From Thioalkalivibrio nitratireducens DSM 14787 (lineage in GTDB: Bacteria; Pseudomonadota; Gammaproteobacteria; Ectothiorhodospirales; Ectothiorhodospiraceae), in NCBI RefSeq assembly GCF_000321415.2, contig NC_019902.2, forward strand, positions 1,178,001 to 1,242,000: a DNA stretch of 64,000 nucleotides, written 5' to 3'. The position numbers and the translations under genes were made by a program. Of the stretch, positions 9,491 to 11,367 are shown in pieces. Every line of letters begins with the position of its first letter. The stretch's first letter is position 1. The notes under the pieces are model-generated. The model was not told where the DNA came from. It searched no databases and saw only the letters and a list, made by a program, of their open reading frames with translations.

Positions 9491-10308
9491 TAGGCTTGGG
9501 GGCAACGGATGTCAAGGGGCGGCAAGGCTGGTGGGCCATGCGGGAAATTCATCACCAAGCCGTCTCGCCAGACACCTCGGCACTGCGTTGGGTCTGTTTG
9601 AAATTCGCTCGCCATTCCCGCAGTTTCCTGGGATGCTCCAGTGCGTCTGGTTGTGCTCCACGGGTACCGAGGTACCCGCATAACCCCCCTGGGCAAGTCC
9701 GTCTGGTGTCGTAGCCGCAATCCGGGGAGCGTAGCGGGCCCTCAGAGGCAGATGGTCCGGGGCCGTTGATAGAAAGTGGGCGAATCGTCCGCGCAAGCGA
9801 CTGGTCGGGTTTGCGGAAGGTGCGCAGAATGCCGGCCGCGAGCGGCGCAGGCGTATGGCGCCGGGTGGGTGTGGCCGGTGCGGATCCGGCTGCGGTATTC
9901 TGCGCAGCTCCACTCGGTGATGAGGTGTATCGCCTGGAGAATGAATCCGCCCTGGCGCGATCGGTCTCGGCTATCGACATCCTGTGCGAAAAGCGAGCGC
10001 CCTTCAGACGCCGTGACCCTGCTTACTCTCCGCCCGAGACGCGTCTGAATGTTCCGCAACGAGTGGGGCACAAACCGAGGGCGCTGCGGGCGTTGGTACA
10101 CATGTGGCGGGGCATTCACGTACGTTCCGGTGGCTAGGATGAACGAACCGCCGTTCGTGAGGCCGAGCCTGATCGGTGGACGACGATCCCGCGACTCCGC
10201 ACGAATGTCGCCTCCGATGCGATGACGCTGGATGCGGCCGCGAGCACAGTGGTGGAGTCGATCCACAGTGGCTGTGTGCCCCCAGCCCCGAGATACAGGA
10301 GTGGAAAC
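9491..10308. other. Long intergenic stretch without a convincing gene
   Basis: About 0.8 kb between the phasin upstream site and the terminator of the small gene at 10352. Open frames exist on both strands, but their composition is shadow-like (Arg/Ser/Pro/Cys rich, no recognizable motif) and none has a good ribosome-binding site. One minus-strand stretch near 10170-10280 reads as plausible protein for about 40 codons (LWIDSTTVLAAASSVIASEA) without a start, which may be a degraded gene. I could not identify it. Confidence 0.5.
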
Positions 10309-10343
10309 GCACGAGGGCCCGGGAAATCCCCAGGCCCTCGTGC
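10309..10343 (-). terminator. Strong hairpin terminator of the small gene
   Basis: A 15-base-pair stem (GCACGAGGGCCCGGG at 10309-10323 pairing with CCCAGGCCCTCGTGC at 10329-10343, one G-U pair) closes a five-base loop. On the minus strand it begins nine bases after the stop codon of the 47-residue gene and is followed by GTTT. The stability and the position make an intrinsic terminator likely, although the U tract is short. Confidence 0.75.
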
Positions 10344-10351
10344 CGACCGCG

Positions 10352-10495
10352 TCAGAATGGTAGGCTGCCGACCAGAGGAAACAGCAGGCTGTTGAGCGCG
10401 ACCAGCACCGGCTCGACGACACGCTCAACCACGCTTAGCAGCGGGTTGAGCATTTCGAGACCACCGTCGGAAGCTTCGAGCGTGAACGAGACCAT
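10352..10495 (-). CDS. Small 47-residue hydrophobic protein, unknown
   Basis: A 47-codon gene. The protein begins MVSFTLEASDGGLEM, followed by a hydrophobic/amphipathic stretch (PLLSVVERVVEPVLVAL, then LLFPLVGSLPF) that could associate with a membrane or a PHA granule surface. I do not recognize a family. Support for a real gene is structural: CGGAGA seven to ten bases before the ATG, a promoter-like pair (TTGTCG, 16 bases, TATACT) about 70-100 bases upstream, and a 15-bp terminator stem right after the stop. It lies between the phasin and phaR genes, all on the minus strand, but appears to be its own transcription unit. A small RNA is the alternative reading. Confidence 0.6.
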   Translation of the reverse strand: MVSFTLEASDGGLEMLNPLLSVVERVVEPVLVALNSLLFPLVGSLPF

Positions 10496-10593
10496 GGCAT
10501 TTCTCCGAAACGTTGTAGGGAATTCATCCCGAGCGACGTTGTAGGGAAGGGCTCCCCGGGGCAGGAGTATAAACCACTAGGCCAGCACGACAA
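10496..10593 (-). promoter_or_regulatory. Promoter and repeated leader of the 47-residue gene
   Basis: On the minus strand, TTGTCG (10593-10588) and TATACT (10571-10566) are separated by 16 bases, giving a predicted start near 10559. The ~64-base leader holds two exact copies of TTCCCTACAACGT (plus-strand positions 10536-10548 and 10510-10522, spaced 26 bases) and then the CGGAGA ribosome-binding site. Direct repeats in a short leader suggest an operator or an RNA-level control element. The function is inferred. Confidence 0.5.
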
Positions 10594-10881
10594 CAATTGT
10601 GGAACCCACACCTCGACGTTTCGATGCCCCATTCCCCGAACCGTTTCGTTTCGAACACCGCTATTTCCGGACCGCCGGACTCGATCGACCGTCACGCGTA
10701 TGCCGATCTCGGCATCGCCGAGCTGATTGCGACGCGGTGCTTGTTCGTGCGACTACGGCCACGAATGGGCCTGCCGGTGCATTCAGTGGAGTCCAGGCGA
10801 ACCAGGGGACGGGGCGCGGGCAGCGCCGCACGAAACGGGCAGCGATGAAGGCGCCCATTCAGCGAGCGCCGGTTGGGCCGC
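10594..10881. other. Intergenic, no gene seen
   Basis: Between the promoter of the small gene and the 3' end of phaR. Short overlapping open frames occur in several frames, but none shows a ribosome-binding site, recognizable domain or consistent codon use. I see no repeat or hairpin of note. Confidence 0.5.
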
Positions 10882-11367
10882 TCAGTCGTCGCGGCGAGGT
10901 CGTGAGGATCGGTCCGTGCCCCCGAGGCCAGCGGCGCGGAAGAAACTGTCCTGCATCTCCCGCCACAGTTCCATGTTGCGCTCGGCGAGCTGCGTCCAGT
11001 TGTCCACGCTCTTTCCCGAAACCAGGTGGCTCAACTGCGCCTGCATCTGTTCCTGTTGCTCGGAATAGAGCTTCAAGGTCTGCTCGAGGAAGCTCGAGAA
11101 CGCATCCTGCATCGAAGCGTCGTAGAAGCGGATGAAGCGGGCCAGCATGTCGGTGGTGAACATCGGGGTGCCGCTCGCTTCCTGCTCGGTGATGATCTGG
11201 ATCAGGATGCCTCGGGTGATGTCCTCGCCGCTTTGCGTGTCCACCACCTTGATGTCCTTGCCCGACTGCACCAGTCGCTGCACGTCGACGAGCGTGATGT
11301 ATCGACTTTCCTCGGTGTCGTAGAGGCGCCGGTTGGGGTATTTCTTGATCAGGCGTTGGTCGGTCAC
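10882..11367 (-). CDS. phaR: PHA synthesis repressor PhaR
   Basis: A 161-residue regulator that binds both PHA and DNA and represses phasin and PHA synthesis genes until polymer accumulates. The N-terminal PHB_acc_N DNA-binding domain is clear (IKKYPNRRLYDTEESRYITL), followed by the PHB_acc region (MFTTDMLARFIRFYDASMQD) and a helical tail. The start is taken as the GTG at 11367, with AGGGG eight bases upstream and VTDQRLIKKYPNRRLYDT matching the family N-terminus; an in-frame GTG at 11394 is the alternative. Probable targets in this window are the TGCA-rich sites at 9461 and 12796. Confidence 0.93.
   Translation of the reverse strand: MTDQRLIKKYPNRRLYDTEESRYITLVDVQRLVQSGKDIKVVDTQSGEDITRGILIQIITEQEASGTPMFTTDMLARFIRFYDASMQDAFSSFLEQTLKLYSEQQEQMQAQLSHLVSGKSVDNWTQLAERNMELWREMQDSFFRAAGLGGTDRSSRPRRDD

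Follow-up and report, generated by a model that had tools for sequence, protein, structure and literature searches.

A probable accessory gene for a 47-residue, putatively membrane-associated protein between phaP and phaR in Thioalkalivibrio nitratireducens

A 47-codon frame on the minus strand of Thioalkalivibrio nitratireducens DSM 14787, lying within the 64,000-nucleotide stretch of DNA analysed here (the window), is probably a real protein-coding gene, as judged from comparison with its homologue. Its promoter elements, leader, ribosome-binding site, frame and 3' hairpin together form a unit conserved in two Thioalkalivibrio genomes, amid unrelated surroundings. The best explanation, to which a probability of roughly 0.55 is given, is that an acidic, membrane-associated small protein of 47 amino acids is encoded by a stand-alone accessory gene, probably carried horizontally, with no specific tie to PHA metabolism.

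The original prediction described a small transcription unit composed of promoter-like hexamers, a leader with repeats, a ribosome-binding site, 47 codons and a 15-bp terminator stem, and every one of these parts is present on the minus strand. The promoter scan places the -35 hexamer TTGTCG at 10593-10588 and the -10 hexamer TATACT at 10571-10566, with a spacer of 16 nt. This pair matches 9 of 12 consensus positions, and two promoter-like pairs of such quality occur in the scanned region, compared with 0.4 expected in shuffles. The leader of about 64 nt contains two exact 13-base direct repeats, TTCCCTACAACGT, at 10510..10548 (copies 10548-10536 and 10522-10510), and is followed by the Shine-Dalgarno sequence GGAG (10506-10503), which lies 7 nt upstream of the ATG at 10495 and within the 15-base block GGAGAAATGCCATGG. 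The frame itself, MVSFTLEASDGGLEMLNPLLSVVERVVEPVLVALNSLLFPLVGSLPF, spans 10352..10495, and a terminator-like hairpin with a weak T-tail occupies 10310..10342, comprising 15 pairs, U-G and G-U among them, and the loop ATT; the fold z of the whole transcript is -3.64. The predicted stem thus exists, but its identity as an intrinsic terminator did not hold up, since just three T occur in the tail CGTTTCCACT and the intrinsic-terminator scan accordingly made no call on the hairpin. Termination at this site is plausible, not canonical, and the weak T-tail leaves uncertainty.

A search of the genus identified a single homologue, in Thioalkalivibrio sp. ALJT, whose protein is 62% identical over 47/47 residues with no indel. 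The homologue retains the start, the ribosome-binding site, the promoter elements (TTGTCG-N15-TATACT in ALJT) and the 3' hairpin, and both TATACT and GGAGAAATGCCATGG are kept. In the DNA alignment, indels are confined to the leader and the 3' spacer, and the frame has none. The hairpin differs by one two-sided compensatory pair (G-C to C-G) and one U-G to C-G change. Each of the two carriers, both of them soda-lake bacteria, has one copy of the gene. No further homologue was found in the family, in the class and phylum samples of about 400 genomes each, or among viral contigs, phages and plasmids, and a pattern scan that covered 84,980 genomes, and that can reach close relatives only, returned nothing beyond ALJT. 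Two weak matches were taken as chance: one in a third genus (genome G040, E 1e-4) is read from the opposite strand of a gene whose product has repeat domains and a cytochrome-like end, and the other (genome G362) covers 20 residues, contains an internal stop and sits upstream of another gene. Pfam, NCBIfam, PHROGs and PADLOC gave no family match for the protein, and the PDB sequence set yielded nothing of note for it.

The evidence for coding comes from conservation. In DNA this rich in G+C, ATG frames of 47 codons often arise by chance (the 1.4-kb insert around the gene has 9, versus 5.2 in shuffles, not clearly above chance), so length alone is no evidence. The comparison with ALJT, a single pair of sequences, reveals purifying selection on the frame, with a dN/dS of about 0.31, changes at 18/37 synonymous versus 21/104 nonsynonymous sites (Fisher p 0.002), and differences of 14/7/18 by codon position. 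The BLOSUM score of 151 exceeds the 106 +/- 14 obtained under a null in which the same substitutions fall randomly (p about 0.0005), and the annotated frame scores best of the six, the other five being lower; the plain identity test is weaker, with p about 0.06. Because frame, promoter, ribosome-binding site and hairpin are all kept with mostly conservative replacements, the frame is probably a gene, as had been proposed. Of the expectation that related genomes would carry the same frame with synonymous variation, one part stood, as ALJT has it and its synonymous changes are faster, but the gene was found in no other relative searched.

The leader repeats had been taken to suggest specific control, an idea that finds no support as a shared element. 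The 13-mer has no further occurrence in the 4.0-Mb genome beyond its two leader copies, and the DNA alignment places neither copy in the ALJT homologue; the repeats therefore appear to stem from a local duplication and are no motif spread through the genome. A different candidate for control lies over the -35 box, where the block CCACRATTGTTGTCGTGCYGGCC is common to both genomes. The conserved block CCACAATTGTTGTCGTGCTGGCC (10580..10602, minus strand), likewise common to the homologue, includes TTGTCG together with a possible operator-like inverted repeat, CACRA-N6-TCGTG. The repeat CACGA-N6-TCGTG is perfect in ALJT and has one mismatch in T. nitratireducens, and it may serve as an operator. 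With 3 mismatches allowed, neither CCACAATTGTTGTCGTGCTGGCC nor CCACRATTGTTGTCGTGCYGGCC recurs elsewhere in the two genomes, and neither was found in T. paradoxus.

The encoded protein is acidic in T. nitratireducens, with 1 basic and 5 acidic residues, and its GRAVY is 1.06, compared with 1.22 in ALJT. The hydrophobic moment over an 18-residue window is 0.57 in T. nitratireducens and 0.49 in ALJT. AlphaFold2 predicts one helix spanning residues 8-43 (pLDDT 71, pTM 0.33), in agreement with the earlier description of a hydrophobic amphipathic protein. From composition and this modest-confidence model, the product is likely a membrane-associated helix. A Gly-Gly at residues 11-12, kept in both proteins, was considered as a sign of a bacteriocin-type leader and rejected, as 12 residues are too short for such a leader and no adjoining transporter or immunity gene was recognised.

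Taken as a working mechanism, a sigma-70-type promoter would drive the gene as a separate transcript, and a dedicated regulator may act on the inverted repeat that covers the -35 box; the strong 3' hairpin would end or protect the mRNA. The product would form one long amphipathic-to-hydrophobic helix, lying in the cytoplasmic membrane or on its surface and modulating either the membrane itself or a protein in it.

The main functional rival is a toxin role in a unit resembling type I toxin-antitoxin systems, in which an antisense RNA silences the mRNA of a small, hydrophobic membrane peptide; such a role is unlikely, with an appreciable minority chance of being right. Type I toxins are typically small hydrophobic proteins under antisense RNA control (PMC6563280, PMC8309996). 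The gene resembles them in length, in its hydrophobic helix, in being a monocistronic unit with its own promoter and a structured mRNA, and in its patchy distribution beside mobile elements. It is unlike them in its acidic product, in showing no recognised sequence relation to them and in that, at the threshold used, the opposite strand of both homologues has no promoter of sigma-70 type, which a trans-encoded or weakly promoted RNA would escape. The net negative charge of the product, the single copy per genome and the lack of a PADLOC match also weigh against a toxin.

A small chance remains with a relic, in which the gene was formerly constrained and is now out of use in decaying mobile DNA. 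The gene lies between phaP and phaR in a region (9517..10925) that blastn against the loci of PhaR-bearing relatives leaves unaligned to the spacer of T. paradoxus, the relative with the most similar PhaR (92% identical). Between the aligned flanks, the phaR-phaP spacing is about 1,408 bp here versus about 214 bp in T. paradoxus, which leaves about 1.2 kb of extra DNA; short spacers also occur in other genus members with PhaR. The insert contains a diverged MITE copy, and Pfam gave no significant match to any other frame in it, which would suit a relic, but promoter, ribosome-binding site, frame and hairpin are intact in both genomes.

The MITE copy (9528-9695) is a decayed member of a dispersed MITE-like element of the genus, about 155-185 bp long, with terminal inverted repeats CTAGTGGGCCATGCGGAAAGTTCGG / CCGAACTTCCCGCATGGCCCACTAG and multiple copies here and in roughly twelve related genomes. 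The decayed copy is situated directly upstream of a strong promoter-like pair for the phasin gene, TTGACA-N17-TATGCT (9515-9487, minus strand; promoter scan), which is followed at about 9490-9455 by TGC/GCA-rich repeats that we take to resemble PhaR binding sites. The ALJT copy of the gene sits between an IS200-like (RAYT-type) transposase and a porin. Numerous short repeats built around AAGGCAAGGTTTGACCCC also flank that cassette (L004 1-500, 1340-1960; L016 6773-8526). An apparent MazEF-like pair, read by eye, is not far from the ALJT copy in this repeat-rich accessory patch.

A broader proposal, rather doubtful, is that the gene belongs to a new mobile family of toxin-like or membrane-modulating micro-genes with a dedicated promoter operator, spread as a self-contained cassette of about 300 bp among haloalkaliphilic sulfur bacteria.

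The transcript had also been proposed to act as a small RNA. A regulatory RNA with an incidental frame would account for the retention of the strong 3' hairpin, with its compensatory pair, and for the conserved leader block TCGCTCGGGATG, but the frame is kept free of indels, its replacements are conservative and its synonymous changes are spread along it, which renders an RNA-only role improbable. Rfam, applied to the whole window at gathering score, gave no match at the small gene, and only a tRNA elsewhere.

The neighbours in T. nitratireducens are a phasin (PF09361) and PhaR (TIGR01848), with PhaE and an alpha/beta hydrolase of the PhaC type further on, and granule association had been raised as one possibility. 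The small gene adjoins a real phasin gene and shares an amphipathic helix with phasins, but its product has about one third of the phasin length and matches neither phasin profile (Phasin_2 PF09361, TIGR01841). Neither PhaC nor PhaR was found by search in the ALJT genome, and homologue searches did not find the gene in any other genome of the family that has PhaR, so the gene occurs independently of PHA genes. A literature search for a small PHA-granule protein of such a kind returned no title or abstract opening evidently on the subject. With the insert also missing from the T. paradoxus spacer, a PHA granule-associated protein or phasin-like modulator is highly improbable, and chance most likely explains why the gene lies next to storage-granule genes.

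The preferred reading, an accessory gene for a membrane-associated small protein, places the product beside lineage-restricted orphan small membrane proteins, which are likewise short, with one predicted helix, few homologues and no family; nothing so far distinguishes the 47-residue protein from them. The case illustrates that a gene of fewer than 50 codons spotted by eye can be real. It also illustrates that genomic position can mislead, as the neighbours hinted at PHA, whereas the homologue and a relative's short spacer indicate an accessory cassette that is unrelated. With its two members, this orphan adds a little to the list of small membrane proteins that await characterisation.
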